DNA from: Jaminaea rosea
Taxonomy: Eukaryota > Basidiomycota > Exobasidiomycetes > Microstromatales
Reading direction: 5' to 3'
NCBI RefSeq assembly: GCF_003144245.1
Contig: NW_020289984.1
Span: forward strand, 372,001-436,000
DNA length: 64,000 bases
Part shown: piece after piece, positions 31,727 to 50,256 of the stretch
Layout: the number at the start of each line of letters is the position of its first letter
Position numbering within the stretch: position 1 is the first letter of the stretch
Translations under genes and position numbers: made by a program
Notes under the pieces: generated by a model
Seen by the model: the letters and a program-made list of their open reading frames with translations, nothing else
What the model was told of the DNA's origin: nothing
The model's database searches: none

Positions 31727-32070
31727 CCTGACTGACTGGCTGGGCGGGTGTGATCAGAGGTGGAAAGGAAGGAAAGGAAGTGCAGGAGGTCGATGAGGCA
31801 ACGGCGGGTGGAGCGGGCGGACTGCAAGCCAAACCGGCATAAGACCGCGCTTCCGTGATGATGAGGTAAGCAGGCACGCTAGTCAAGCGAGATCGTCCTT
31901 CGAAGAGGCGCTCTTCTCTCCTTGCTCGTCTCCCGTTCACGCAGCGGTCACAACATCATATGGGGAGGAGGGCTCAATCTATTGCCCAGGAAGAACCGAC
32001 CTTCACACGCATTCCAAGCCCTGACTGGGTAACTACTTCCTTAGCCTTCATCCCCAATGGCGTTGCACGC
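31727..32070. other. intergenic, upstream of rcf1
   Basis: About 340 bases that hold the rcf1 promoter and the 3' flank of the first array gene. I see no further feature. Confidence 0.5.
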
Positions 32071-32669
32071 CTAGTAGCGATACTGGTACCAGACCTCAAC
32101 GTCGGCAGGAGCTTCTTCCTTTGTAAAGGTGACCGGCCAGCTACCTGTCAACGAGCATGGGTGATGAGGTATCGCATCAGTCGAAGCGGGGGTCGCGCCA
32201 CCGTATACGTACACTCATCGGTCGATCTGTGATAGTAGCAATCCCCGGCCGTGCTGTTGCCTAGACAAAACGCCCACGTCGGGCTATAGCATCGACCAAA
32301 GCGCGTGGATCCTACATGGGTACCAGAGAGCGATTTGGAAGGGCATTAGACTCGCAAGGCTGATGTCGTCTCCACAGCGACACCCGACTCACCCCAGCTG
32401 TCCCCAGCACACGGCGCCCCTACATCTAATCGCTCCTTCTTCCAATAGCCCCAGGCAGCAACTTGAACACCATATGCGCCGGTGCCATGGCCGTCGCATC
32501 TGTAGGTCGCATACCCCCCCTTCTGCTCCACCTTGACCGCCCTACAGAAGAGGGCAAAGTCGTAGGCAAAAGGGACTCGATTGCCAATCTTCCAGTTGCA
32601 AACGATATCTGGGCTCGCGAGGGATCGGGCGATGAGGTCAGAGAGGGAGAGAAGTAGCAAATAGAGCAT
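32071..32669 (-). CDS. small secreted cysteine-rich protein, array member 1
   Basis: Three exons on the complement: 32669-32393, 32311-32213 and 32144-32071, giving 149 aa in phase. A signal peptide (MLYLLLLSLSDLIARSLASP) precedes DIVCNWKIGN. Module 1 has C-x-W, FALFCRAV, and a YRCDGHGTG block ending WGYWKKERLDVG. Module 2 reads APCAGDSWG, CYSPTWAFCLGN, GDCYYHRSTDEC. Module 3 reads SWPVTFTKEEAP and VEVWYQYRY. There are eight cysteines in the mature part. The intron arrangement differs from all other members: the intron after module 1 is absent and a different one splits module 2 at SW-G. It is closest to member 2, also on the minus strand, and lacks the N-glycosylation sequon of module 3 found in members 2-8. 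Function is unknown; extracellular action is inferred from the signal peptide. Confidence 0.78.
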
Positions 32670-33139
32670 CCTGAGCAGCTGAGGGGAGGTCGCGATCGGA
32701 CGAGAAGCATCACATCGCAGGGATCCACGGGACCAGTTGCCCAGCGCTGGCATCGGGCTTGCGATCTGCGGCACATTCTCGTGGCCTTGTGGCCCAGCTC
32801 TTCCATCTTTGCTCTCCAGCAACTGAACACACGTTGTCGAGAAGCTCTCATGAGTCTTGTTGCAGCGATGTGCAAGCAATCCGGTAAGATTGAGCCGGCA
32901 CAGGAGGCGGGCAGTAAGCAAGGTGATGCCACACTTCGCATGCGCTTCTCGATTATTGTATCAGCATCGACGCTCCAGCACGTTCGCACAGCTCAACATA
33001 TCAAAATGAGGTAGGCTTTCATCATGTTTCGTCACATGCTTGTATCTGCGGCACCACGAGTGCACCGTATCCCAGGCCGCCCGCGCTGGGCTAATTTTCC
33101 TGCGCGCTCATCCTACCAAAGGCCACGCAGCCTACCGTA

Positions 33140-33766
33140 TCAGCGGTATGCATACCACACTTCCACATAACCCGGAGCCTGCTCTGTGGAAAAATTGGTC
33201 GGCCACTCGCCTGGCACGAGGAGGACCAGAGGGATTTCCTGTGTCAGTATCGGCTTCGATCGCCGCCGCTGCCCGCGCTCTCTACGCACAATCATCGATA
33301 GATGCATGGTAGAAACAATTGCCGTCCGTGCTGTTGCCCAAGCAAAGCGCCCAATATTTCGAGTAACACTTGTGGAACCTCGTTTCTCCCCAAGTCTGCC
33401 CAGTGCATGGCGCCTCTGAAGGAGTGACAGCAAGGCGAGAACGTCAGTAGCTCGTCGAGGCGGCACTCTCAGGCCCTCCTCAATCTACATCGCTGTCTAC
33501 GCACCGACGAGGAGTTTGTCCTTGTGCATGAAGCTCCAGGAGGCGACGCGAGTGTCATACTCGCCCGTACCGTGGCCGTCGCAGATGTAGGTGGCGAAGC
33601 CCCCCTTCTCGTCCTGTCGCACGGCCCTACAGAAGAGTGCGAAGTCGTAATTGAAGGGAGTTTTGTCGCCGATTTTCCACGTGCAGGTGAACTGTGCTTG
33701 TGCACTCGTCAGGAGGAGAGGGATGAAGGCAGTGAAGAGGGGGAAGATTGGCGTGAAGATGTGCAT
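33140..33766 (-). CDS. small secreted cysteine-rich protein, array member 2
   Basis: Three exons on the complement: 33766-33505, 33415-33290 and 33210-33140, giving 152 aa in phase. Signal peptide MHIFTPIFPLFTAFIPLLLTS, ending near AQAQ. Module 1: FTCTWKIGDKTPFNYDFALF, then C, and YICDGHGTGEYD, ending MHKDKLLV. Module 2: APCTGQTWGE, KCYSKYWALCLGNSTDGNC, then FYHASIDDC. Module 3: EWPTNFSTEQAPGYVEVWYA. Eight mature cysteines. The second intron is phase 1 and splits the last Cys codon of module 2 (T|GC), as in every member. An N-F-S sequon is present in module 3. It is divergent from member 3 across about 400 bases, so this pair is the head-to-head edge of the array. Product unknown. Confidence 0.82.
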
Positions 33767-34169
33767 GCCGGGCGATCAAAGTGGTGGTTGGATATGGAGG
33801 TCTAGAGCAGGTAAAGGGCTGCTATAAGTTCTTTTGACCGATTGATTATCGGATGCACTGTGTCATGTGCACAGCGTCAGCTTCAGACTGTCAGACTAGG
33901 GCGCCTTTACCACGCCTCGTGACCTGAGGAGCAGGCTCATACCCCTCTCCCTCTGTCGTCGCAAGAACTCCATGGCAAATCCAACCGCGCTGTGGCCGGC
34001 GGTGAGTCTGCTTGATGAGCAGGCAAAGTCGCGAGTGCCCTCAAAGAGATGTTGGGGGACAATGGTGCCGACCGGAACGCTGAGATGACAAGTCCGCCTG
34101 ACCTCGTTGACACGTCCTACATTCCATCTCTCGTGGTCAACCTCGCCTTTCCCTTTTGATCTGGTCACA

Positions 34170-34832
34170 ATGCTTGTAAGCCCAGTCCTTGCCGTACTTC
34201 TCAGACTCGCTTTCGTGGCCGGCGAACATGCGACCTGCTCGCCCCAGCCATCCAACAGGCCCCCGTGGTACAGCTCATACATCATCTGGTGCAACGCAGA
34301 CCGCGTCGGAGTTGGGAAAGATCAAGCAGAGTACCGCTGCAACGAGAACAAGGACACATTGATCGCTGATTTTGGCAAGCTGAGGCCAGGTGTCCTCGAG
34401 TGGGGTGCGACTTTGGCCGGATCGGCCAACCCTCTCCCACTGTCTGCCGCTGACGTGTCGCTACTTCACTCTCGTGCGTGCGCTGCGTGCGTTCACCAGG
34501 AACTCCTTGCGGCCAAGGCGGGTATGCTACAATTCAGGGGAAATGCCGGTCGCGCTCCTGGATTCTTTGCTTGGAAGACTCATGCGATATGGCTTGTCGC
34601 TATATGCGCTCAGACGATGACTGTTCGTCCTCGCCCGAGAAGAGCTTTTCGCTGTTCCAGATTGAAGTTTGACCCTTCTACTGCTTCTCGCCTAGGCGAA
34701 TGGCCCGAAAACTTCAACATGTCAAGCGTCCCCAATAGCGTTACACTTTGGATGCATAATTACTGGTACGATCGGCGCTTTGGGATGATGGGAGAGGACC
34801 CTGTGACGAAGAGCTCTGGAAGTTCTGATTAG
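34170..34832 (+). CDS. small secreted cysteine-rich protein, array member 3
   Basis: Exons 34170-34404, 34500-34622 and 34696-34832 join to 164 aa. Signal peptide MLVSPVLAVLLRLAFVAG. Module 1: HATCSPQPSNRPPWYSSY, IWCNADR, KDQAEYRCNE, then ADFGKLRPGVLEWG. Module 2: TPCGQGGYATIQGKC, SWILCLEDSCDMAC, MRSDDDC. Module 3: EWPENFNMSSVPNSVTLWMH. It carries nine cysteines and the N-M-S sequon. The C-terminus runs about 20 residues past the usual end (YDRRFGMMGEDPVTKSSGSS), longer than any sibling. The C-x-W motif has become C-x-P. Donors are GTGCGA and GTTCGT, weaker than those of the siblings, but both junctions keep phase and the conserved blocks. Confidence 0.78.
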   Translation: MLVSPVLAVLLRLAFVAGEHATCSPQPSNRPPWYSSYIIWCNADRVGVGKDQAEYRCNENKDTLIADFGKLRPGVLEWGATLAGSANPLPLSAADVSLLHSRACAACVHQELLAAKAGMLQFRGNAGRAPGFFAWKTHAIWLVAICAQTMTVRPRPRRAFRCSRLKFDPSTASRLGEWPENFNMSSVPNSVTLWMHNYWYDRRFGMMGEDPVTKSSGSSD

Positions 34833-35075
34833 CTTTGTGGGCTCGAGACTCGAATTTCGATTGCTCCCTGCCTGACAGTGGTCGTTCATCGCGGCAGAGT
34901 GATACCGCTGGGCATGACCCCTTTGACGCGATTGGAGGCAATAGCAATGTTACACGAAACTCTCCATTCGCCGTCCCTCCCATTGCTGCAGCTCTTCTCT
35001 TGCCAGCGCTCCAGCTGATCTTGCTTCCAGACCACCACAAGTCCACCTGCGCACAGCCCATTCATAAGGCACAGC

Positions 35076-35781
35076 ATGCTCACCTCTCTCTTGCCTTTTC
35101 TTCTCTACTGCCTGACTTTGGAAGGCGCTCGTGCCAACCACTCCACGTGCTCCAGGGGCCCTTTGGCCAGGGCTCCGTGGTACGATGACTATCGGCTCTG
35201 GTGTGAGGCAGGACGCGTCGACACTGCGGCGGACCAGGCAGAGTATCGATGCAACGACCAGAAAGACGTGGTGATTGCCGACTTTGGCAAACTGAGGCCA
35301 GGCGTTCTTGAGTGGGGTAAGTCTGCCGCAGTCTCGAGAGACAGCGACGCACAACGACTGTCACCACTGACGGGCCTTTCTTCCCCATATTTTCGGCCGC
35401 TTCAGGCACGCCTTGTGGGTAAGTACGGTACCCTGTAGTTTCAAGCGACAACCCACGCACGAAAGCGTGTGCCGCTGACGGATGCCCGCAACCCCGATCT
35501 CCTGGCTCAGGCGCAACGGTTATGGATTCGATTACAAAGGAGTTTGCTGGTCACGATCGTGGGTCTTGTGCCTGGGTGATACCTGTAACCTGGCCTGTTA
35601 CTACTTGGATCCTGAAGACGATTGTAGGTAGCAGGATGCTCCTTATCTGCTCTGTTCTGCGCTGATCCATCTGCCTTACCTTGATTGCTCAGGCGAGTGG
35701 CCAAAACATTTCAACTTGTCGACTGCTCCGAAGAGCGTTGAGCTTTGGTACTATCGCTGGCGTCGCAGCTGGGGACAGTGA
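35076..35781 (+). CDS. small secreted cysteine-rich protein, array member 4 (with 13-nt micro-exon)
   Basis: Four exons: 35076-35316, 35406-35418, 35511-35623 and 35693-35781, giving 151 aa. Signal peptide MLTSLLPFLLYCLTLEGARA. Module 1: NHSTCSRGPLARAPWYDDY, LWCEAGR, DQAEYRCND, ADFGKLRPGVLEWG. A 13-nt exon encodes only TPCG; its 13 nt plus the 113-nt next exon equals the 126-nt single exon of several siblings, which supports it. Module 2 continues RNGYGFDYKGVCWSRSWVLC, LGDTCNLAC, EDDC. Module 3: EWPKHFNLSTAPKSVELWYY. Nine cysteines and an N-L-S sequon. Donors are GTAAGT, GTAAGT and GTAGGT, all strong. Confidence 0.8.
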
Positions 35782-36020
35782 GGCTGTCGCGACGCCGTCG
35801 CCGTCCCTCCCAGCGGCATTTACACTCTTTCAGCTCTACGTCAATGTCCACTTTGGTTCAATGCTTGCCGTTGTGGTTCATCGCAGCAAAGCTTGTAACA
35901 GCACGTGCGCTGTCTTTGTGGCCTAGTCGTGATCCTTGTGGCAAAGGACGACCGTTGACGCAGTGGACCTCTGCCCGACCCTTCGTACCGTACCACTCGA
36001 TCCACACACACCTCTCATCG

Positions 36021-36612
36021 ATGCCCACGATCTTCGCCGTCGTCCTCTTGATCCTCCCTAGTCTTGTCCATGTCAGGGCACACCACGCTGTTTGCTCGTA
36101 CCGCCCCTTTACGAGACCCCCATTCTATCAGCATTTCTACCTCTGGTGTGTAGCAGACCGCCATGACATCGGTCACGATCAAGCAGAATATCACTGCAAC
36201 GACAAGAAGAAGAGTGATCTGCTCATTGCCGACTATGGCAAGCTAAGACCGGGGATTCTAGAATGGGGTTAGTCTTGCAGGACAGAAGCACACTCTCTGC
36301 GCTGACTGTTGCTTCCTGCTCCACCGTCGTCCGCAAGCCTCTCCCTGTGCAAAGGATGGCTGGGCTCGCTACTTTGGTGGCAAGTGTATGACAAACTGGT
36401 GGCAGCTATGTCTGGGAGACACGTGCAATGGCGCTTGCTTTACGATGAATGCCTACGACGACTGCTCGTGTCTCGATGGCTTTGATGTCCTCCGGACCGC
36501 GCGTTGACGATACCATTCTCTCTTTCTTCGATGCACAGGCGAATGGCCATCCCCCTTCAATAGCTCCACTGCTCCCCAGCGGGTCGAGCTCTGGTATTTT
36601 GGTCCGTCCTGA
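36021..36612 (+). CDS. small secreted cysteine-rich protein, array member 5 (apparent GC-AG intron)
   Basis: Exons 36021-36267, 36338-36463 and 36539-36612 join to 148 aa. Signal peptide MPTIFAVVLLILPSLVHVRA. Module 1: HHAVCSYRPFTRPPFYQHF, LWCVADR, DQAEYHCND, ADYGKLRPGILEWA. Module 2: SPCAKDGWARYFGGKC, WWQLCLGDTCNGAC, AYDDC. Module 3: EWPSPFNSSTAPQRVELWYF. Nine cysteines, with an N-S-S sequon. At the place where all siblings have T|GT, this copy reads GACT|GCTCGT, so the second intron would need a GC donor; no GT donor nearby keeps the frame and the EWP module. If that intron is not spliced the protein ends early, 14 residues after DDC. Confidence 0.74.
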
Positions 36613-36858
36613 AGACCTCTGCCGGCGCAATATTGGCGCCCGCGACCCTGCGGCCAGATGTACTCGCTCCGCCCACAAAGTCGGTCAGCCCCCATCTTGA
36701 GCATCGTCAGCTCTTTGCATACTGTATATCCGCGTGTGAGAACTTGTGAGCTGGCTGCCGATTGCACTTTTATCAAGACTCTCAGCGTGTGATTCGTCAA
36801 CTCCAAGCAAGCCTTCGTTTCCTCCACCCGCCACGCGCACTAATCACCACCCCTCGGC

Positions 36859-37456
36859 ATGCTCTTGTGCACGCTCCTCACCATCTTTTCCGCCATCTGC
36901 TCTGCCTATGCAAAGCATGTCACTTGCTCCTGGCGACCTTTCACGAAGCCTCCTTGGTACTCCTCTTTCTTCTTGTACTGCATCGCCGACCTACACGACA
37001 TTGGCTCAGGCCAGGCAGAGTACCACTGCAACGACGGCACTTATCTGAAGATCGCTGACTTTGGCAAGCTCAGGCCGGGCGTTCTTGAATGGGGTAGGTG
37101 TGGATCAGCAGCAGTGGCATAGAAGCATCCCGTACTAAATTCCCTTTCTCCACCGTGTCCTGTGCAGGAACGCCTTGCGGAGGTGGTGGCTGGGCATTTG
37201 GAGGCAAGGGAGGCGTGTGCATTGCTGACATATGGGGGCTCTGCCTAGGAGACACGTGTAATGGCTCGTGCTTCTACATGAAGTCCTTCGACGATTGTGA
37301 GGCTCTACGAACGACTTTGCCCTGTACGATCAGATGCTAACCTCTGTCCATCTTCACGGCGTTCACACTTCCACAGGCGAGTGGCCAGCTCTGTTCAACA
37401 TCTCAAGCGCCCCAAAGAGCGTAGAGCTCTGGTACTACAATGGCTGGGGCTTCTGA
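36859..37456 (+). CDS. small secreted cysteine-rich protein, array member 6
   Basis: Exons 36859-37093, 37168-37296 and 37377-37456 join to 147 aa. Signal peptide MLLCTLLTIFSAICSAYA. Module 1: KHVTCSWRPFTKPPWYSSFF, LYCIADL, GQAEYHCND, ADFGKLRPGVLEWG. Module 2: TPCGGGGWAFGGKGGVC, WGLCLGDTCNGSC, SFDDC. Module 3: EWPALFNISSAPKSVELWYY. Nine cysteines and an N-I-S sequon. Introns are 74 and 80 nt with GTAGGT and GTGAGG donors. This copy sits closest to the family consensus and is a good reference member. Confidence 0.85.
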
Positions 37457-37901
37457 CGACCTCAGCGGTCGAGGGGAGGGTCATGCCCTCGATCAGAGCA
37501 ATTGGCTGAAACACGTAGCCGTTGTCGGCTCTCGAATAAATATGCTCTTACCTCTTGACGCAACCTCGGCGCCTTTTCTCGCAATGCCGGCACGAGACTG
37601 CCCGCTTGAATTCCGCAGCTGGCCCGAAAGAGATCAGATACTCTACCGCGCTCTGCGCCAGTGCCGGCCTGACAGTTCCTTTGGCGAGTTTAGACGCCCC
37701 GAGGGTGAAGGGTTGATCCACCGCATTACCTCCGGTGCTGACCAAACGATGGTTGCTCTCTTTGCTTTGACCAAAGGAGGAGGGTCACGGCTACAGTGAT
37801 CTTGATCGGAGAGGTGTGCAATTCGCTTTCTGTCTTCTTGACGAAGATTGTCAACCTCACACCACGCACCTTTGCTCCACTGAGCGTCATTGCGCCTCAC
37901 C

Positions 37902-38562
37902 ATGCTCGCGTCGACCCTTTTCGTCCTCCTTACTGTGCCTTTTGTCGGCGCTACGCACCACTCTTGCAGCTGGAAACCATACACTCGCCCGCCTCCCTTC
38001 AACGGCTACATGCTGCGATGCGAGGCGCAGCGCTTGGACACCGCCGGCACAGAGCAAGCTCAGTATCATTGCCACAACGCCGGAGGCGTCATGATTGCCG
38101 ACTTCGGGAAGCTCAGGCCAGGAATTTTGGAGTGGGGTGCGTTCAGGAGGCGAACTCTGAATGCTAGCATCGAGCTGACAACCTTCTCCTGACCGCTTAT
38201 CACGGGGCCTCTTCTAGGGACACCCTGCGGGTGGGTGACTGAGACTCCACTAGCTTTGCCCTCATCGCGTTGCTGACCTGCGGTTTTGCTGACCCTACCG
38301 CAGGGGCGGGGGATATGGCAAAAACGTCAGGGGAGATTGCCTAGCTGATCTTTGGGCGCTTTGCCTTGAGGACACGTGCAGCAACAATTGTTACTACATG
38401 CATGATGAAGATGATTGTGCCTCATTGAGCTTTGGATTCATCACATGAGAAGGAAGCTGATCGACCCCTCCCCATTACGCCCGACGCGCAATAGGCGAGT
38501 GGCCAACCCCCTTCAATCTGTCCAACGCGCCCAAGAAGGTTGAGCTGTGGAGCAACTATTGA
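37902..38562 (+). CDS. small secreted cysteine-rich protein, array member 7 (with 13-nt micro-exon)
   Basis: Four exons: 37902-38136, 38218-38230, 38304-38416 and 38495-38562, giving 142 aa, the shortest member. Signal peptide MLASTLFVLLTVPFVGA. Module 1: THHSCSWKPYTRPPPFNGY, LRCEAQR, EQAQYHCHN, ADFGKLRPGILEWG. The micro-exon encodes TPCG. Module 2 then reads GGGYGKNVRGDC, LWALCLEDTCSNNC, DEDDC. Module 3: EWPTPFNLSNAPKKVELWSN. Nine cysteines and an N-L-S sequon. The start is the ATG at 37902; the frame is open a little further upstream without an ATG. Confidence 0.8.
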
Positions 38563-39006
38563 TTGTGCAAGGGCTTATGTGCTGCACAAGGGCACGCTGC
38601 TTGCCTTGGTCACGACCTCGCCAAGAGGTGTACTTCTCCTATCATACTCAAGTCAACAATCTCACCAATCGATCACGTGCGCGCCTGCGACCTCAACCAG
38701 TGTGCACGAGTGAGTCTGACCGCAAAAGCAGGCGATAAGAGGGAAGGTTAGGCCGACCAGATGATACGAGCGCCCACACGCGATTCGGATTGCCGTGACA
38801 GACAACGTGCTGGACCTTGCATTGTTGCGGCAGACAGGCTCCTCGCACCATCAGCTCCATTGCCAGCAAGAAGGAGTGTATGGCCGGCTTACGCTACCGA
38901 CAGCTGACGTCTGCCCTGCCTGACCTAGTGCAAGCCTTTAAGAAGCTTGCTGTCTGTCTCATTCCTCGCGTCCACTCACTTCTCTCGCTCGAGCTCAGCC
39001 AGCACC

Positions 39007-39662
39007 ATGCTTTCTCTGTTGCTTGCCCTTGTCATCCACTCGCTCACCCTACCGCACTCCGCTTCGGCTGCTCATTCCATATGCTCATGGCGTCCATACA
39101 CGCGATCCCCAGCCTACTCCTCGCTGTACCTGTGGTGCTCTGCTGAGCTCACGATTACGGAGGAAGGGCGAGGGGACTACAGATGCAAGGTGAACACCGG
39201 CATCAAGATTGCAGACTTTGGTGGTCTGAGGCAAGGGGTATTGGAATGGGGTGAGGAAAGGTCAATGTGGGGGACCGTAGTGCCGTGCCAGGAGCTGACC
39301 TTCTGCCGTCCTTCTGCTGGTCGCGCCGAGTAGGGACACCTTGTGGGTGAGTGCAGATCTGCGTGGCAAATTGCAGTGCAAGACGCTGACCTTCCCTCGT
39401 CGCGAAGTCACGGAGGCTACGGGCGCGACTATCACTCGATCTGTGTTTCGGAATGGTGGGCGCTCTGCCTGGGAGACTCTTGCAAAGGCGAATGCTTCTA
39501 CATGCACGATGATGACGATTGTAAGCATTGCTGGCGGCGCCGGAGCATGCGATTGAAGCTGACGCATCGGCCTCCTGTGCTGCGGCAGGCGAGTGGCCAA
39601 CGCTCTTCAACACGTCGAGTCTACCTCAGACCGTTGAGCTGTGGGCCTATTACGAGCATTGA
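39007..39662 (+). CDS. small secreted cysteine-rich protein, array member 8 (with 13-nt micro-exon)
   Basis: Four exons: 39007-39250, 39334-39346, 39408-39520 and 39589-39662, giving 147 aa. Signal peptide MLSLLLALVIHSLTLPHSAS. Module 1: AHSICSWRPYTRSPAYSSLY, LWCSAEL, RGDYRCKV, ADFGGLRQGVLEWG. The micro-exon encodes TPCG. Module 2 then reads HGGYGRDYHSIC, WWALCLGDSCKGEC, DDDDC. Module 3: EWPTLFNTSSLPQTVELWAY. Nine cysteines and an N-T-S sequon. The acceptor before module 2 is GCGAAG rather than CAG/TAG. I chose the ATG at 39007, which starts a clean signal peptide; an in-frame codon 60 bases upstream adds a polar stretch. Confidence 0.8.
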
Positions 39663-40959
39663 GGGAGGAAGGGCTGTGCATTGGGGTGGATCAAGTCGAT
39701 CGTCTTGTCGAATGTTATCTCCATCACTCAGTCTCCTGCGTTACTTCCCATGCGTGGCTTGAGCACAGGCAGCTGACTGGCGCTGATTCGTTTCACCGAA
39801 GATTCCTGACTCATGCGCTGGACCCCTCGGCGAGGGCGAGAGGGACTTAAGTCAGTCCAACACTTAAAACATCGCACCCATGATAGTAGGGGTTTTGATC
39901 TTTGCAGCACGGCAGTGCAGGCAGACCAACGCTCAAATTGAGTCGCGCTCTCGCATGTTGACCGCAAGCTAGAGAGACAAGATGCTCAAAGCAGGAGGAA
40001 ATTCCAGTACTCATAGAGTGAGACTCATTAGCTTAAGAGCAGTTGGTTGCAACACTCGCATTCGAGGATAATATCGACCCGCAGGGGACGTTGTTGGAGT
40101 GGTAGTAGTCGGCGTGAAGATCAGTCTGATCTCTTCTTCGCCTGCTTCGCCGTCGTACGAGTCCGAACCGCCCAGGCAGCGGCTGCACGTTCTGCCATGA
40201 TCGCCCGCAAGCTCTTGTTGGATTCGACAAGAAGCGAATCGTCTGCATGGTCACCGCAGAGCGCCGGGCCGAGCTCATCATCGCGCCCCCTTGCTTTGCG
40301 CAGGCGGCCAACAGCACCGGGGCGAACTCGTCATCACGCCACACTTCCTCAGTCCGGACCATGTCCCTTCTCGATCAGCTCGATCAGCTCGTTGACGCAC
40401 TCGTCGAAGAGACTGCCTCGCCCAAACACAACGTCCTGTCAACATCGTCGACGAGCACTCATGGGGCGACCAATATCAAGACCTCCACCCCCTTCGTCAT
40501 TTCCTTCTGTCTTCATCCGTAAGAGGCACGAGCTCGTAGCCGGCATACACGCCTCCTGACTCCCTCTCATCGTCATCTCGCCTATTTGTCGATGCTGGAG
40601 TCTTTGCGATATCATTGTCAGTGCTTGAGTTCTGCCTCTCCCATGTTGTCTCACCATCGACGTGGAGGCGCTCGATCGCTCAATCACGACTCCTCGCTCA
40701 TCACGCCTGTCCGCATCGAAGAGACAAAAAGAGCACACGCCACCAAAGACTGAAGGGTACTCGACCGAGGGAGAAGGGCTCCTTGATGGTCGACGAGTCG
40801 AGCCGGGATCAGCCGCAGGGGTGATGAAGGTGAAGCAATGAGTTATTGTATGTGGTAAGAAAGCAAGACATGAGAGACAACAGGTGAGGAGGCGTAAACA
40901 AGGGCAGGACGGAACGGATCTGGCCAGACACGACGTTGGGGGGCCGAGCCTGCCGAGTC
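39663..40959. other. 1.3-kb gap within the array
   Basis: No paralogue motif (EWP, ADFG, TPCG) found here on either strand. A 54-codon frame at 40361-40522 (MSLLDQLDQLVDALVEETAS...) is followed by a GTAAGA donor-like word at 40519, but I could not find a convincing next exon. Confidence 0.45.
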
Positions 40960-42480
40960 CTACATTGCACGGACTGCCGCACGCGCTGCCGTCGCCGCCC
41001 GTACACCTTCAATGTACTCGGCATTGACCGAGTCATCGGTGTAACGAGGTAGGCAGATGAGATCAAAAAGAGTATGAATCGCAAAGGAAAGAGGACTCTG
41101 ACTCCGAGACAACAGATGTGGACGACGCGGAGCGCGTGCCACGTGACAATCGGGGTAGCCATTGCGGAACCTATCTAGTGGGCCGAAGAGCAGATGCAGG
41201 TTGTTGGTATCATACCCCAGGCGCGGCTCGATGCGACTGACGTCCGCCAGACCGAGTGGCAGCACCAGCCCAGTCGAGTCCAGGTATTCGTCCCCGCCCT
41301 TGCATCGGCGCAGCAGCAGCTTGTAGAAGGCGATGGCCTTGGCACTGCCCCCGATCTGGCTGCGGCGAGGCGCTCCTGACGTTTGTAGCGCATGGGCCCC
41401 GCGATTGGTAAACAGAGGAAGGTACTGTACGAGGGCAAGCGGGTAAGGTGACGATTTTGCGTCAGCATATCAGTGGTAGAGTAGAGGGCTGGTAAGTGTG
41501 AGCTCACACTGGTTGGAAGTTCTCCTGCAGCGTCGGCGCGACGCGAGGAGAGACATCAGGAGTGCCCAGCAAGCCGCGGTGGTCCACCGTCGTTGTAGCC
41601 TCGCTGGCGATGCGCTCAATCATGGTGGGCATTTGAGCGTTGCCTACGGACCGCCTGAGTGCTGCGCACGTCTTGCAGGACTGGACCAAGTTGGCTCGAG
41701 TGTGCTCAAGATCCAAGTCGATCCGAGACAGCGACCAGTTGAATGGGAAGTTTCCCTTGCTCAGTCGTCCCTCCGCCTTGCGCTTCTGCCTGCCATGGTC
41801 GGTCAGGGCGATGAAGGTCAGGTCGTTGCCGCAGTCCTTGCAGGTGTGGGCCTCGTCGCGAAGCAGGTATTGGTGCTCCGCCCAGATCTCCGAAAGCCGG
41901 CGCTCGTACTGTGCGCTGTGAAGCGCGTGACCCTCGGTGCGGACAGCAGCCCCGCATCTGCCCTTGACGAAGCACTCCCTCGACAGAGTCTCGGACAAGG
42001 TGCCCCGCGTAAGCCCTTTGCAGTGCTGCGTTCGGCTGGACTCTCCGAGGCCTTGCGCGCTGTTGCCGAAGAGCTTTGCCGCCTTGATGACCTTGTCTTC
42101 TGGTGAGTTGGCCCACTTGGCGATCGCCTTGACGCGCACCTCCTGCTTTTGGTCGTGCAGCTGACTCCAAGTGGGGCGCTGCGCATCGCCCTCGAGGATC
42201 GCTTCGAGCAGGTGCGTCATGTGCGTCGAGACGTAGCTTGCCCTCATGGCTGCCTTGCCCCAACGGCGAATGCCCTGCCTGATCGCAGGCAGAAAAGATG
42301 CGGTCCGCTCGAATGCTGCGCTGTCCTTGGCCGATCGCCCGGGAGTGTACGCGAGTGGCGGGAGCAGCTCGTATGGCGACTCGAAGACGTAGCCTTGCTT
42401 GCGGCGAATGGCACGACCAACGTCCTCTGAGACGCCCAGACCGTGGGGTGCACGCCGTCCTTGCTGTGTACCTTGAGGAA
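40960..42480 (-). CDS. HNH/treble-clef-like protein, 3' part of a possibly decayed locus
   Basis: Two exons on the complement, 42480-41510 and 41424-40960, join in phase 0 across an 85-nt intron (ENFQP to YLPLFTNRG). The first exon has HTCKDCGNDLTFIA, about 40 residues later SLSRIDLDLEHTRANLVQSC, then KTC. This pattern (C-x2-C, R-I-D, H, N, C-x2-C) resembles HNH and other treble-clef nucleases. The second exon repeats the theme without the cysteines: YLDSTGLVLPLGLADVSRIE, then GYDTNNLHLLFGPLDRFRNG. The middle is basic and helical. Function and whether it still cuts DNA are unknown. The upstream limit is uncertain: an acceptor CAG at 42481 fits a preceding exon ending at 42551, but its frame disagrees with this one. 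It may be one gene with the Ser-rich frame upstream. Confidence 0.5.
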
Positions 42481-42730
42481 CTGCAAGGCGAGCACGGTGA
42501 GAAGACGAGTGGTCAGGAGAGATAAGCAAATCACGATCGCACCTACTCACGGCTTCCAGCACGACGGACGGCCTCCTCTACAGCGTGATCAGCTTCTGCA
42601 TCAGGAGATCCTCGTTGGTCTGCGGATCCTTGAGCCCGGCCATGTACGCCATGTTGCAGATCGCAGCACATGGTCGCCAAACGGTGTGGACCTTGCTAGC
42701 CCCGGTGTAGAAGCCCGTAAACCTCGATCT

Positions 42731-43864
42731 TCAGACCGGAGGGGGCTCGTTGGACGCAGCCATGATGAGCAGCTGTAGGAAGCCCATGACCTCGCAGTGA
42801 CTCTCGAAGTCGTCCCAGTCACGGCAGATGACGTTCTCCGCAGTCGACATGTAAAAGAGCAGCAGCTGCGGCTCGAAGGGCATGACGAGCAGAGGGATGT
42901 CTGCCAAGGGTTGCGCGCTACCAAGCTCGGGCCATGGGTATGCTAGCAGCTTGACCCAGGCGTCGGACGTCGCATGGGAGCCCGGCTCGATCCTGCCGCC
43001 TCCGCGGTTGACGGGCACAGAGGAGTGTGCGCGAGACGAGGACGAGGACGATGCTGCTGGGAGGCTGGCGGCGAGGTGGGCGCGGGACGAGGACGAGTAC
43101 GAGGCGGCGGTGGCGTCGAAGCGGGCGCGGGACGAGGACGAGGACGATGCGAACCCAGTAGCGTGGAGGCGGGCGTGCGAAGAAGAAGAAGAAGATCCAG
43201 ACCCGCTTGTGAGGTCGATGTGAATTCGAAGGCGAGATGAAGAGGCAGAGGATGCAGAGCCGCTGGCGAGGTTGGCGGGTAGACGGGCGCGACTTGTGGA
43301 TGAGGACGCCGCCATACCACCAGATAGACTGGCGGTGAGACGAGTGCGAGATGCATGGGACGATGGTGCGCTGGATGCTGGGCGTGATGCCGGAAGACGA
43401 GCCAGAGAGGTGGATGCGGCGGGCTGAATGGCGGCAAGACGGGCGCGAGCCGCAGATACCGAGGCGCCCAGAGTTGGGCCGCGAGCCTGCGTGGTGGACG
43501 GGGAGGCCAGAGGAGAGCTGATACTGTGGAGTCGATGGGCGGCGGGGATTGGTTTCAGCTGGCGCTCGACGTACAGCAGGGACGCTGTTCGGACGCTCAC
43601 CGTCCGGCCTCCTCAATGTCGCTGTCGGACGACACGCAGCTGGCGTCCGCAGCGGTGCGTCCTCGCTTTGCAAGTCTAATGGGCTGACCACGGCTGAAAA
43701 GGGTATGGACGATTCGAGGCGACGTGACGCGAGGAGGGAGGCAGGGTGATCAGAATGGTTGTGTTCGCGTGCCGACGTGCAGCATCAGGTTGCGTTGGGA
43801 GTTGCTGCCAACACGGATACTCACCCGACGCGGTTTTGTTGTTGAGGGAGGTGAGAGGCGGCAT
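42731..43864 (-). CDS. serine/arginine-rich repeat protein, 5' part of the same possibly decayed locus
   Basis: A likely first exon is 43864-43825 (MPPLTSLNNKTAS, GTGAGT donor), and a second begins at 43693 after TTTTCAG (VVSPLDLQSEDAPLRTP). The main frame, 43600-42731, carries about ten imperfect copies of an SSSSSRARLxA unit, then a more globular end: AWVKLLAYPWPELGSAQPLA, DIPLLVMPFEPQLLLFYMST, CRDWDDFESHCEVMGFLQLL. How the second exon joins the repeat frame is unclear; the only obvious intron would be about 16 or 41 nt, too short. After the TGA at 42733-42731 the same frame continues protein-like (FTGFYTGASKVHTVWRPC, MAYMAGLKDPQTNEDLLMQK) to a TAG and on to an exon end at 42551. This suggests either unrecognised introns or a gene losing its frame. 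No domain recognised. Confidence 0.4.
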
Positions 43865-45865
43865 TGTGGTAAGCGAAGTTGGTGTTGATCGGTGATGATG
43901 CAGGAACGAGGAGAAGCGCTGAGCAGTATCTTGGTGTGATAGAAGAGGTAAAGGAGGCGGCGACCTCGCGCTTGGTCCCCCACAACCGCGATAGAGACGC
44001 TCATCGACGGTGCGCTTGTTTTCTTGTCCTAGCGAATTGGGCACAACAGGAACAGTAGACTGATGGTGTTGAAGCTTCGCGAGGCCGACTTAACCGCCCA
44101 AACGTCCGTGCTCGATCATGCTCGGTCTTTTGAGCTTGTGTGTGTCTCCTTCGACTTCCTGTTGAGCTTTGGCTTGGCTAGACTTGCCTACGCTCAGACC
44201 CCTTCTTTGGGCCCATCTGGTTTCTTGAGCTCGAGCCTGTGTCTCCTTCAGCTTCCCCCTTTGGATCTATCGTTTTGAGTTGACGTGCTTCACATGATTC
44301 TTCTGTCCCTTGATCGACGGGCTTGAGTCGACGGGCTACGCACTGCTGGGAGGAGAGAAGAGAGAGGTGGTGATGGAGTGCGTGATCAGCAGGTACTCAT
44401 TGACGTGCGGCGAAGTTGTGTACATGGCTACTCACCTGTCACGCCCAGCGTCCCTGTCACGGCTTCAAGCGAAGACGGCGTTGCCCCGATGCTCGGTCGA
44501 AATCGACGAGTAGAGTGAGAGTGAGATGGAGGCTAGAGGGATTGAATTGGGTGAGAAGGAGGAGGAGGAGGGGCGTACTGTAGGATGCGAGGAAGAGGTG
44601 GAATGGAGAATCTCAAGGGAGAAGAGGAGTGAGTGGTGGAGAGGCAAGATTGTAAGTCGAAGTGTGGAGCGACTTGACTCGACGACGTGATTGGCCTCAC
44701 GCTGAGGCTGTGCCTGAGCATCGCACCAAAATGGCGCCTGACTTGTGCCTGAGAGCAATACTGGCAGGGCGGGTGCTCCGTGCCTCGGCTACGCTCGCGC
44801 TCACTGGTCTCCGCTGATCGAGGGCGCGGAGAAACGTCTGCCTGATCATCCAGCAGGGAGAGATGTCGGAATTGATCCCACGGAGGGACGCAATTGCCTC
44901 GCTCGTAACTCGGCAGGCTTTGAGCACCGGAGGAAAGCGGCGCGGGCCAGCAATCGCATCTGAGCGACACGCACGAGCAAGCCGCTCTCACGATCAGAAA
45001 TGTTCCCCTATGCTGGACAGGTGAAGCTGAATATGAGCTTTTGCTGCGGACGCTGATGACTCTGAGGGACAACACTGTGTGGCCGAGTACCTCTCGCTTC
45101 TGATACACTGTCCCGAGCACGCCACCCGCGTCTGATCGGCTCTGTAGCACTCCGGCATTTGCGGGCCGCCCTCTGGGCCCTTTGCGCCTGACAATGAGCG
45201 AGATCGCATAGGCGTGGCGGCCCGCTGAGATTGACGGCAGGATAAAGACAGCGCGTTGTTTAGCGGGAGCGTTGTGACTGAGTCTGTAACCCAAGCCTAC
45301 CGCGTTCCTGATGGCATGCTCTTTGCAGCCGAAAGTTGCTGCACCTCGTCCTTGAATTGTTCCTTAATGGCTAACAGGTGACTGAGTCCATCAATCTTGA
45401 GCAATCAGCCATACGAGAGATGGCGGCTCGAGCGTCACTGCTCCATGAAGCACCTTGCCGCCCTCGCGCTGGGTCACATTGACGAAAGCGAAGGCCGCTT
45501 GTTATGGCGGATGGTGATAGCGTTGCAACAAATCAAATGTCGCCTCAAAGCCCCGTACTGCTGGTCGGATGACAACACCCGTCATGATGGGTCATGCTGC
45601 AAAGGCTGCGACGAGCGGATCACCAGTTTGACGAAGCGTGACCATCATTTAGCCACCGCCTCAAGCCCACTCACGATCCGGACCCATCCGTGGGCGGTGC
45701 AAAGAGGACCTCCGACGTCGAGATGAAAGCCCGACGAGAAAGAATATAAAGGAGCCAACCATTGAGCCCCTCCGTCCCCCGGCAGACCTGCCACCTCACT
45801 TCGCCCCAAGATTTACCTCACCGGCATCCTCACCAACCTCAGCCTACAGCCTGCCGCCTGCCGCT
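43865..45865. other. 2-kb gap within the array, no supported gene
   Basis: The longest frame is 253 codons on the minus strand (45294-44533). It is rich in Ser, Arg and Pro, has no domain motif and does not start at ATG in a good context. I see no array-type motifs. The right end holds the promoter of array member 9. Confidence 0.45.
45745..45750 (+). promoter_or_regulatory. TATA box of array member 9
   Basis: TATAAA in the context GAATATAAAGGA lies 116 bases before the start codon of array member 9, followed by a C-rich leader. It is the clearest TATA box in the array. Other members lack an equally good one. Confidence 0.6.
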
Positions 45866-46455
45866 ATGCTATTCCTGACGCTATTCCTGCTTCCGGTGCT
45901 GCTTTTTCTGCACACGGTCTACGCCGATCACTCGACCTGCTCTTGGGTTCGCACGAAAAAGTCGCCCAGCACACTTGGCTACGTAATGTCGTGTTCAGCC
46001 AAGTACGTCTCTGATGGGCTCGAAAAGGGCCACTATGAGTGCGACACGAACACAACGAGGCAACCAGCTAATTGGGGTTTCCTGCGAAGGCACACGCTCG
46101 AGATGTGTGAGTCTTCATTCATGTCCCTCAGAGCTTCAGGTGGTGGTCTGACGTACCTACCTCGCGTTCGCAACGCCACAGCTACGCCCTGCGGCAAGCA
46201 CGGCTGGGCTTTCAGCAACTACGACGGGTCCTGCCCCGGCCGCACTTTTGCGATGTGCATCAATTCCAATGCCGGCACTTGCTTCTACATGCAATCTGGT
46301 GATGACTGTGAGCCTGCACAAATACTGCACGAGCGGGAGGGATGTTACTGACCGTGTGGAGTCGCGCCTTCTTTTCGCTGTCCACAGGCGAGTGGCCGGG
46401 CGAGTTTACTCCTACCACCAAGCCCGGAGCTCTCGAGTTTTGGGTCAATGCCTAA
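45866..46455 (+). CDS. small secreted cysteine-rich protein, array member 9
   Basis: Exons 45866-46106, 46182-46307 and 46388-46455 join to 144 aa. Signal peptide MLFLTLFLLPVLLFLHTVYA. Module 1: DHSTCSWVRTKKSPSTLGY, MSCSAKY, KGHYECDTNT, then WGFLRRHTLEM. Module 2: STPCGKHGWAFSNYDGSC, FAMCINSNAGTC, SGDDC. Module 3: EWPGEFTPTTKPGALEFWVN. Eight cysteines; the extra cysteine of members 3-8 is absent and so is the module-3 sequon. With member 10 it forms a subgroup sharing the RRH(T/I)LE end of module 1 and the WVNA terminus. Donors are GTGAGT and GTGAGC. Confidence 0.85.
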
Positions 46456-46967
46456 AGGCTTGCCTCAAGAAGGCTTCGAAAGTCCGAACCGTGGCAGGTC
46501 CGCGGTAGGCTCGATGACCTCGATATGCGCTCGAGCATACTGATCGCGACTCGTCGCGATCCTCAACGCTGTGACTCCTGTTTCGTGATTGCGACCCATC
46601 CGAAAGAATGCCACTCTTATTCTATCCTTGCCTTGCTGTTGCGACGCCTTTGCTGTGCCGTGATGGAAGGGCTCGCTAGACCTTCTGCCAAGCGCGTCCG
46701 CACTGCAGCGGTGGAACTCCCCGATGTGCAGAGATGGCGCCGGTCGTAATGTTAAGGCTGCTTTCATCGTCGCTGACCCCGAATCACAGAATGCTTAGAT
46801 AGCGGACCAATATCTCTCTGCGTCAGCGTTGAGGCGGCGAACGGTAAATCAACCGCAGTACGGTATGTCGCTGTCGTTCCGGCCTTTGCTGAGCGGTTCG
46901 CCCTTGTTGGTAGCGGGACGATCCAATGCTACGCTCAACCCCTTCTTTTCAACTGAAGTAGCCCCTC
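46456..46967. other. intergenic within the array
   Basis: About 510 bases between members 9 and 10. Presumably 3' flank and promoter; nothing else seen. Confidence 0.5.
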
Positions 46968-47578
46968 ATGCACTCATTCAGCCCCGTGACATGTCTTGCG
47001 CACCTCTGCGCTCTGCTGCTTTTCCGTGGCGCCCTGGCCGAGCACTGGATCTGCTACTGGCAGCCTATCTACGAGGAGTCACCCGCAACGCAAGGCTACT
47101 TAAAGTACTGTACGGCAGACAAGATCCTCGATCCGGGGTACGACCAAGCTCACTACGAGTGCCAGGGGAATACTAGCTTGCGACCCGCTGACTTTGGCTA
47201 CCTGAGGAGGCATATCCTTGAGCTGGGTGAGCCGAAGACGTCCCCTTGGCATCTGTGCTGCGGAGTGCTGACTGCCAACCCCCTCGTGCCGCTCTACACC
47301 GGACCAGCGACACCCTGTGGAGGTAACGGCTGGGCAATTGACTGGGAGGGGGATTGTCCTGGCCGTTCATGGGCTTATTGCAATGGCGCTTCCAGCGAGG
47401 GCGACTGTTACTACCTTCAGAGTAGAGATGACTGTGCGTGGACGCCCCGAGGGATGCAAGTGGGTCGTGCTAGGTCTGACAGACCTGCTCCTCTGCCGTT
47501 CCTGACGCAGGCGAGTGGCCCGGATACTTCACGCAAAAGTCGGCCCCCTCGACGCTCGAGATTTGGGTGAACGCCTAG
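46968..47578 (+). CDS. small secreted cysteine-rich protein, array member 10
   Basis: Exons 46968-47226, 47308-47433 and 47511-47578 join to 150 aa. Signal peptide MHSFSPVTCLAHLCALLLFR, ending near GALA. Module 1: EHWICYWQPIYEESPATQGY, KYCTADK, DQAHYECQGN, PADFGYLRRHILEL. Module 2: ATPCGGNGWAIDWEGDC, SWAYCNGASSEGDC, SRDDC. Module 3: EWPGYFTQKSAPSTLEIWVN. Eight mature cysteines, no module-3 sequon. It is intermediate: the DQA-Y-C and ADFG blocks of members 3-8 are combined with the RRHILE end and WVNA tail of member 9. Confidence 0.84.
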
Positions 47579-48407
47579 CGTTGCTGAGCCGGGGATGCTC
47601 CTCACAAGCGTGAGTTGTGGGTCAGTAGCGGAGACGAGATAGCCGCTCCGCCAACACTTGACCCCGGGGACGACACCGTACGTCATGGCTCATCATCGAG
47701 ACAATATTCCTTTCATTCTTCCTTTTGCTCGATCATGTGACTCTGACTTGCGTCGCCCGCCATCGCGTTGACATCTGATCTCGCTGCGTTATGACGGCTG
47801 ACGTTTGGCATAAGGGGCGCGCCGTCGCCTGACTTCCTGCGTCGATACCGTGACACCTGGCCGTAGTCGATGATTCTACCGATTTGGCTTCGCCACGTCC
47901 GGTGTCGTCAGCAATGCAGGTGAGGCTCGGGATTCTCTGCCGATACCCCGGCGAGACTGTAGCGGGCAGGACCTCCGCGCCCTCGGCCAAAAAGGGTGCG
48001 CGAATGGCACAGCTCAGCAGGGCAGTGCAGAGTAACGTGGTCACCGTCAAGTCACGCCGAGAAGGGTTGCACGTAAGCTCTTGCTGACACGCCGGCATCG
48101 ATGCCTAAAGTCTTTTTGCCCAGCTTGAGCGGGGCCCCGCTTGCTATGAGGATCGAGATCGAAAGGCAAAGGTGAGGCAAATCCGCCGAGGGGGCGGACG
48201 TGTCGGCGGGGTAAAGGGGAAACGCTTGACCTCGAGAGCCTTGGCGAAGGTGCAGTGAGGTGGACGAGAGGTGCGTCACTGTGATGATAGACTTGCCGCC
48301 TTGACCGTGGTGTCGTACGAGGATAAGAAGGGGCGATGAAGGGTCCCAACCAGATCGAAAGCGTAACCTTCCATCCACACTGGCACCTAGCCCCACCTGC
48401 CAACACA
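47579..48407. other. intergenic within the array
   Basis: About 830 bases between members 10 and 11. Minus-strand frames near 48047-48433 overlap the next gene's start and are not protein-like. No array motif seen. Confidence 0.5.
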
Positions 48408-49044
48408 ATGCTCGCCTTGCCCTGCCTCGTCACCTTCCTTCCCCTTCTCCTTCTTCCCCTCCTCAGCCTTGCCCTGCCCCTTCGAAGCGAGGTCGCCTCC
48501 CGCCATCACGTCCTCTGCTCCTGGACGCCCGGCCCCAAGCCCCCCAAGGCCTACGGCTTTGGCGAGCACTACGGCCAAGGCATATTGAAGAAGACCGAGA
48601 ACGACACTCGAGCCCAATACTGGAAGGGCAAGAGCATGATCGCCGACTGGAACTACCTGGGAAACAAGAAGCTGGAGATGGGTGAGTGGTGGGCAGCAGT
48701 GGGAACAGCGTTGGCGCTGACCACCAGACCATTTGCTCACCTCTTTGCTCGCAGCCAAGCCGTGTGACATAGGGGGATACGCATTTAATCGTATAGGTGG
48801 CTGTGACGCCTCCGCTTTCTCTCTCTGCTTGAATGATGCGGGGCCTTCCCAGCCTACCATTAATTGTCGCTACCTAGGGGAGGGCGATGATTGTACGTCT
48901 ACGCGCGCGTCACCGTCGATCAGCGTTGGGCTGACACACACCTCCGTGCTTTTCCCATCCGAGCTAGGCGAGTGGCCAGACAAGTTCGAGATGCACGAGC
49001 TGCCGACCATAATCGACATCTGGGCCAAGTCCAGGCATTGGTGA
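48408..49044 (+). CDS. small secreted cysteine-rich protein, array member 11 (divergent, six cysteines)
   Basis: Exons 48408-48681, 48755-48892 and 48968-49044 join to 162 aa. A long hydrophobic signal region (MLALPCLVTFLPLLLLPLLS) is followed by a linker, then module 1: HHVLCSWTPGPKPPKAYGF, RAQYWKGKSMIADWNYLGN, KKLEM. The second and third cysteines of module 1 are both missing. Module 2: AKPCDIGGYAFNRIGGC, AFSLCLNDAGPSQPTINC, EGDDC, with a longer loop. Module 3: EWPDKFEMHELPTIIDIWAK. Intron places and phases match the siblings exactly, so this is the same family despite low identity. It is the outermost member on the right. Confidence 0.8.
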
Positions 49045-49230
49045 ACGGCAGCCCGATTGGGGGCTGACTGGGATGCATATCACATTCGCAGCGAGGAAGA
49101 CAAGTGAGGCGGAAGTGAGAAGAGCCTGCCCGTTCGTCAGTCGCTGAAAGTAGTCGGAGTCAGAGTCTATGTTCCGTGACCTGGCGTAGTATTATGTGTC
49201 TGCAAGAGGGCGTGTAGCAAGACGGCGAGA

Positions 49231-50256
49231 CTATGATGACGAGGATGATTGGCCGTTTTGTCGATCTTGTCTCTGCCCATCCTCACGGTCATTCCCACCC
49301 TCACCCTCTCCTTCCTCCTCATCCCGATAACCATCCCCATTCTCTTGTTGCTCGCGCTGCTCCGCCTGTTGTTGCTGTTTGCGCTCCAGCTTCTTGGCCT
49401 CTGCCCTGCCAAATCTGGCTAGGAGGAGCAGTTGAGCTACTCCGACCATCGTGGCCGCAACGTTGGGTCCGGCAATGAACCAGTCATTGATGGCTGCACC
49501 GTACACGGACCAGATGGCGCCATTGACTGTGACCGACGTAACGAGGAGGGGCACGAGTGGCGAGGCGTCCTTGTTGACGATGATGGTGCGGAGCTGCGCA
49601 AGAGGGAAGAGGAAGAAGAGGTACTGGTAGACGTTGAATGTGACGCCTGGTGTCCAGAGAAGGTGGGGACCGAGAATGTGTCAGGGGTCGTGTGACACTG
49701 TCACGCTCAATGCTGCCGTCGCTTACTCACCTAACAGCTTGTATGACCAAGCCACCTGCACAATCTCCTTGAGCCCCAAGTTGATAATGACAATCGCGAT
49801 GCTTCCTAGCGCAACCGTGAGGATGGTAGCAATCTGCGCCGTAGGCAGATCCTTGGCGCGGAGGATGCACATGAACGAGAAGCCTACGGCGCATACAGCC
49901 GGTGCGTTGCTGGCGTACATGTAGGGATTGCGAATGGCGAGCGAATAGACGAACGTATGCATCGCAGAGCCAAACATGATGACGATGGGCATCGGGTCTG
50001 TGGGTCCTAGTGTGCCTGTGGAAAGGATGTTGACAAATGTGGGTACGGGCGAGAAGGCCATGACGTTGGCTAGCACGACTCCCACCAACGGAAAGGCTGT
50101 GGCTTGGATGAAGGGCCACCACGAGTCTGCTGGTGGAGACGTGGGAGGGTGCGGCGTCTCCATGGCTGACGGTGAAGAGATGAGGTCGAGGAGACCGGCG
50201 CCACTACTACCGCCTGCTGCAGGGAGCCAGGCGTTCTGATGGGCAAAGGCTGGCAT
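49231..50256 (-). CDS. SWEET-family sugar transporter
   Basis: Two exons on the complement, 50256-49731 and 49646-49231, with an 84-nt intron (GTGAGT donor), give 313 aa. Two MtN3/saliva repeats are visible. The first has VLANVMAFSPVPTFVNILST, DPMPIVIMFGSAMHTFVYSL and NPYMYASNAPA; the second has TFNVYQYLFFLFPLAQLR, DASPLVPLLVTSVTVNGAIW and SVYGAAINDWFIAGPN. The Pro residues of the first helices and the Asn in each third helix (VNGAIW) fit SWEETs. The product is a seven-helix uniporter for mono- or disaccharides, probably in the plasma or an internal membrane. The last 60 residues are a cytosolic Gln/Glu-rich tail ending in Ser. I chose the ATG at 50256 because the frame upstream is not conserved-looking. 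The gene is tail to tail with array member 11. Confidence 0.9.

Follow-up and report, generated by a model that had tools for sequence, protein, structure and literature searches.

Comparison with described families

Lineage-specific, expanded families of secreted cysteine-rich proteins are a known kind, and the stretch of the Jaminaea rosea genome analysed here (the window: 64 kb, contig C10, coordinates 372001–436000, in a 21-contig genome of 16.6 Mb) carries a tandem array of eleven genes from one that is unnamed and unusually large, with at least 87 loci. J. rosea belongs to the Ustilaginomycotina (Exobasidiomycetes, Microstromatales) and is to our knowledge a yeast not known as a pathogen. 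The smut effector clusters 19A, Mig2 and Pleiades, also from the Ustilaginomycotina, belong to the biotrophic pathogen Ustilago maydis and are smaller than the Jaminaea family; compared by description, they too are tandem groups of small secreted, often cysteine-rich genes, and the Jaminaea genes are likewise small, tandemly clustered and provided with signal-peptide-like starts. The ToxA-like effectors (ToxA and Fusarium Avr2/SIX3, SIX7 and SIX8) have no PDB sequence match to the Jaminaea family, which differs from them in its four proposed disulfides, its many paralogues and its yeast carrier. An 'unnamed protein product' of Parajaminaea phylloscopi (P0008) has the same cysteine frame but was recovered as a single copy.

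Venturia inaequalis is described as having expanded families of secreted effector candidates with a shared predicted structure (PMC9632046), features in which the Jaminaea family resembles them; V. inaequalis is a plant pathogen, however, whereas the Jaminaea carrier lives on leaf surfaces and its family has no assigned fold class. J. rosea has been described as a phylloplane fungus (PMC7766764) and members of Jaminaea as widespread and plant-associated (PMC8880017). By titles and opening abstract lines, no paper mentioning Jaminaea or Jaminaea rosea in the literature searched has such a family as its subject; a mention in a 2018 comparative genomics paper is possible.

We give a probability of about one half to the reading that these genes belong to one very large family whose small secreted proteins act by binding outside the cell, through a variable surface on a fixed all-beta scaffold.

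The window array

An earlier note on this DNA had reported eleven genes with shared features at 32071–49044; the genes are real, and those limits coincide exactly with the outermost ends of our models. Nine genes are on the plus strand and two on the minus strand, and the spliced models encode proteins of 142–164 residues, with GT-AG introns and one of GC-AG type. The models, all of secreted family members, are as follows.

32071–32669, minus strand: g1, 149 aa; exons 32393–32669, 32213–32311 and 32071–32144; DEC/SWP replaces DDC/EWP
33140–33766, minus strand: g2, 152 aa; three exons; 55% identity to g1
34170–34832, plus strand: g3, 164 aa; three exons
35076–35781, plus strand: g4, 151 aa; four exons, including an extra 13-bp exon at 35406–35418
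36021–36612, plus strand: g5, 148 aa; three exons, the final intron GC-AG
36859–37456, plus strand: g6, 147 aa; three exons; query for the first genome search
37902–38562, plus strand: g7, 142 aa; four exons
39007–39662, plus strand: g8, 147 aa; four exons; picked from four alternative models
45866–46455, plus strand: g9, 144 aa; three exons
46968–47578, plus strand: g10, 150 aa; three exons
48408–49044, plus strand: g11, divergent, 162 aa; three exons; lacks cysteines 2 and 3

A profile built from 32 intronless paralogues located elsewhere in the genome yielded 25 domain matches in the window (independent E-value ≤0.01), with two or three in every one of the eleven genes and none outside 32000–49100. 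These matches score 13.8–47.5 bits, compared with best scores of 4.5–11.1 bits in ten first-order-Markov random windows, which rules out chance motif matches.

Alignment of the eleven proteins reveals a shared frame that begins with C-x-W near the mature N-terminus and continues through C-x-A, Y-x-C and a motif like A-D-W/F-G; the C-terminal part has P-C-G, W-x-x-C, C-x-Y, D-D-C-x-W-P and a final V-x-I/L-W. The motifs quoted in the earlier note fit this frame in part: DDC and EWP are present in ten of the eleven (g1 being the exception), whereas the others apply mainly to the clade of g3–g8, with exact occurrences, counted by eye on the alignment, of ADFGKLRPG in four, TPCG in seven and LCLGD in four of the eleven.

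The same note had described three protein modules, and these are the three exons of a single domain, since 36 of 83 models across the genome have no intron and encode the same domain; three independent modules are thereby ruled out. The two common introns are each in constant phase, the first after an L-E-W/F motif (35 genes) and the second within the codon of the last cysteine (37 genes). In the window, a fourth short exon is present in g4, g7 and g8, and g1 has no intron at the usual first position.

Family size and genomic layout

Eleven is the size of the array and not of the family, the array being one of several clusters. We searched the J. rosea genome with six queries of its own and two from elsewhere, and modelled the genes, obtaining 83 loci readable with an open frame (36 uninterrupted and 47 intron-bearing, the open frames of the latter being partly built in by a routine that kept only stop-free splice choices). 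They lie on contigs C10 (37), C20 (33), C4 (5), C14 (4), C2 (3) and C7 (1), and on C10 they form clusters near 216, 353, 404 (the window array) and 570 kb. Four more loci, read exon by exon and additional to the 83, are situated at C1:270.5–272.5 kb (two), C10:544.6 kb and C10:526.2 kb, so that there are at least 87 loci in all, together with four or more fragments. No start codon is assigned in three of the 83 models (the automatic count is four, but g11 has one in its hand model), and roughly a dozen automatic models are uncertain in their details: most of the 354–363 kb group, C10:571550, C10:575926, the C2 trio and C20:202960. The eleven window genes entered the alignment and tree as hand-checked models. 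Two NCBI proteins named as Jaminaea rosea are identical to two of the predicted products.

Broken or partial copies are found at C20:171761–171950, C20:177502–177896, C20:211165–211257 and C1:269897–269950, which suggests gene death within clusters.

Relatives of the family

The family had been noted as one without a recognised name, and this agrees with sequence searches of Pfam (the eleven window members and 32 paralogues), NCBIfam (the eleven only) and PDB sequences, none of which returned a convincing match to a known family. The best Pfam matches, each to one member, are EipA (E 2.2e-4, window members) and IL6Ra-bind (E 0.005, paralogues), and the best NCBIfam match has E 0.13 (window members). 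The Alt a 1 family is absent among the Pfam matches and structure results listed, an absence that excludes nothing.

Ten database proteins are relatives, of which the named ones are from J. rosea (2) and Parajaminaea phylloscopi (1). None is by name a smut effector, a negative limited by seven of the ten being nameless and by the sensitivity of the search: the relative searches used at most 100 words and recover few distant relatives, one of them scored the best 8000 candidates, and search or annotation misses close copies, because only two of the 32 intronless genes used for the profile came back under the J. rosea name. Restriction to the Ustilaginomycotina, which the earlier note had named as support, is consistent with the source and the three named relatives but is not established by so weak a negative. 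One partial relative from another organism (P0003, 222 aa) has a long charged C-terminal extension, suggesting that members with added tails exist there.

Evolution and selection

Pairwise identity among the 83 proteins has a median of 32% and a maximum of 68%. In the tree, for which the bootstrap is not fully settled and 33 of 81 inner branches are open, g3–g8 form one clade (support 100/99), g1 groups with g2 and g9 with g10, and g11 stands apart. The 570-kb cluster is also one clade, and mapping all 14 groups on the tree takes 27 label changes compared with 60 for shuffled labels; duplicates therefore stay local, bearing out the lineage-local tandem duplication proposed earlier. The single C7 gene, which is intronless, is the sister of the intron-bearing 353-kb group (99/92), and thus intron state has changed within the family. 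Because the Parajaminaea phylloscopi protein groups with a pair of genes on C14 (98/96), the family probably predates the split of the two genera, judging from this tree.

The twelve closest pairs have nonsynonymous divergence (dN) of 0.18–0.35 in the mature protein, and synonymous divergence (dS) of 1.26–2.3 in nine pairs and saturated in three. In the nine with measurable dS the dN/dS ratio is 0.09–0.24, corresponding to average purifying selection, although dS near saturation makes these ratios approximate and leaves room for positive selection at single sites. Among four environmental relatives compared, one matches the C20:169770 product exactly, and the relatives of g1, g5 and the C7 gene have one or two differences in the compared parts of the mature protein, with an equal or larger number in the signal peptide. 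The copies thus appear to be functional, old and on average under constraint, and not the product of a recent burst.

Protein features and predicted fold

A simple hydropathy check finds an N-terminal hydrophobic core in all eleven window proteins, in keeping with the secretion claimed for them, and signal-peptide-like hydrophobic starts are present in 83 of 84 rows of the family alignment, the exception being a model without a start codon. There are eight cysteine columns, each filled in 78–84 of the 84 rows, and ten of the eleven window genes keep all eight. C2 and C3 are jointly lost in all three rows lacking C2 (p 1e-4), and C4 and C5 in three of six rows lacking C4 (p 8e-4; one of the three is a truncated model), where the p values treat rows as independent and some losses come from doubtful models or alignment shifts. 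Disulfides are supported by these paired losses. Besides the starting Met, conservation in at least 80% of the family alignment is confined to C, W, P, G, A, L, D and H residues, which form no obvious catalytic set. The mature proteins are mostly acidic (median isoelectric point, pI, 5.5; below 6 in 57 of 83 and above 8 in six), and 74 of 83 have at least one N-glycosylation sequon.

The structure predicted for one paralogue (model 1) is all-beta with seven strands (predicted local distance difference test, pLDDT, 92.3; predicted template modelling score, pTM, 0.86), and a divergent member has a similar order of elements (pLDDT 75.8). The single shared fold anticipated earlier is thus the predicted fold in both paralogues. 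In structure-match tables made by re-aligning the top 1000 Foldseek results, Avr2 and ToxA have scores tied with those of unrelated fibronectin-III, MATH/TRAF and other beta-sandwiches, and the top match of model 1 is an enzyme fold.

Possible roles

Under our preferred reading, each member would be a single compact all-beta domain of ~120–130 residues, probably a beta-sandwich, with up to four disulfide bonds. The protein would enter the secretory pathway, be oxidised and often N-glycosylated, and be released to the cell surface or surroundings, where a variable surface and loops on the fixed scaffold would recognise a ligand by binding rather than catalysis; the ligand may be a protein or a glycan carried by neighbours on the leaf. 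The present set of members could have arisen as genes duplicated in tandem, spread to several loci and drifted in sequence while the cysteine frame stayed constant. The conserved D-D, W and H, together with the enzyme fold as top structure match, leave room for catalysis. The earlier note had favoured effectors, surface proteins or antagonists, for which secretion and local duplication speak; we use 'effector' as a hypothetical label, given a phylloplane yeast and average purifying selection.

It is possible, as a tentative alternative, that the proteins are plant-directed effectors acting in the leaf apoplast or on its surface, dampening or evading plant perception as in smuts, with the yeast a hidden plant associate. 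Against this, the available text of PMC7766764 and PMC8880017 reports no host disease for J. rosea or Jaminaea, the Avr2 and ToxA structures score no better than unrelated fibronectin-III and MATH domains, and the nearest paralogues have no accelerated protein change on average.

Somewhat more doubtful is a role as antagonists of leaf competitors, in which the secreted proteins would bind and inhibit bacteria, fungi or rival yeasts. The leaf-surface habitat of J. rosea (PMC7766764) favours it, a large and diverse set would suit many rivals, and a review holds fungal effector proteins that act on microbiota to be fundamental to fungal biology and includes a section on saprotrophism (PMC9438471). 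The acidity of most of the mature proteins, however, is unlike that of cationic lytic peptides, and we saw no immunity partner genes interspersed with the copies, though no search was aimed at them.

We consider it unlikely that the proteins are lectins for the yeast's own surface or its nutrition, binding its wall or plant sugars to serve adhesion or uptake, as so many divergent copies exceed usual adhesion needs and Pfam contains no convincing carbohydrate-binding domain match but only weak one-member matches such as Glyco_hydro_67C (E 0.14). Less likely again is a more specific form of the binder reading, in which the secreted proteins, at least 87 of them, would be built on a ToxA/Avr2-like (TRAF/MATH-like) beta-sandwich and directed at microbes or plants nearby. 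The least likely reading is that of secreted enzymes of a kind not yet recognised, in which the conserved DD and His would form an active or metal site, as DD directly adjoins cysteine 8 and may be structural, the dismutase structure match is to an engineered, metal-free protein (86 residues at 5% identity, tied with non-enzyme beta-sandwiches), and no enzyme family is convincing in Pfam, NCBIfam or PDB sequences.

Neighbouring elements

Contrary to the reported absence of mobile-type elements, the 6.2-kb gap between g8 and g9 contains two candidates.

41504–42247, minus strand: open reading frame (ORF) with two CxxC pairs, treble-clef/HNH-like by eye; Pfam matches sub-threshold only
44160–44295, no strand assigned: copy of a dispersed repeat of ~135 bp; 25 other genome matches, 21 with E <1e-20

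Relatives of the HNH-like ORF are located at C10:359888, inside the 353-kb family cluster, and at C9:284–286 kb, and it may be a gene of mobile or homing type that accompanies the family clusters. The repeat matches have 71–90% identity and some are near the ends of contigs C20, C2 and C18. The ORF and the repeat may form one element, because a repeat copy at C9:282007 lies ~2 kb from the ORF's relatives on C9, as in the window.

To the left of the array, an uninterrupted ORF at 16882–30918 (plus strand) encodes a 4678-aa nonribosomal peptide synthetase with AMP-binding, condensation and carrier domains, and an ABC transporter ORF is nearby at 11873–16030; together they could constitute a siderophore locus. 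To the right, ~0.7 kb from g11, is a SWEET/MtN3-like sugar transporter ORF (49723–50256, minus strand; Pfam 21.5 bits, cut-off 23.7).

Implications

The varied intron states (36 of 83 intronless) and clustered layout make the family a good case for gene-family birth and for intron gain and loss. If the ToxA/Avr2-like form of the binder reading were true, it would place this fold in an 'effector' repertoire outside recognised pathogens and suggest that a pathogenic lifestyle is not needed for such repertoires to arise. For a yeast with no known hosts and a genome of only 16.6 Mb, so large a single unnamed secreted family is a considerable investment, and it could be used to test what effector-like repertoires are for: pathogenicity, competition with microbes or life on surfaces in general.
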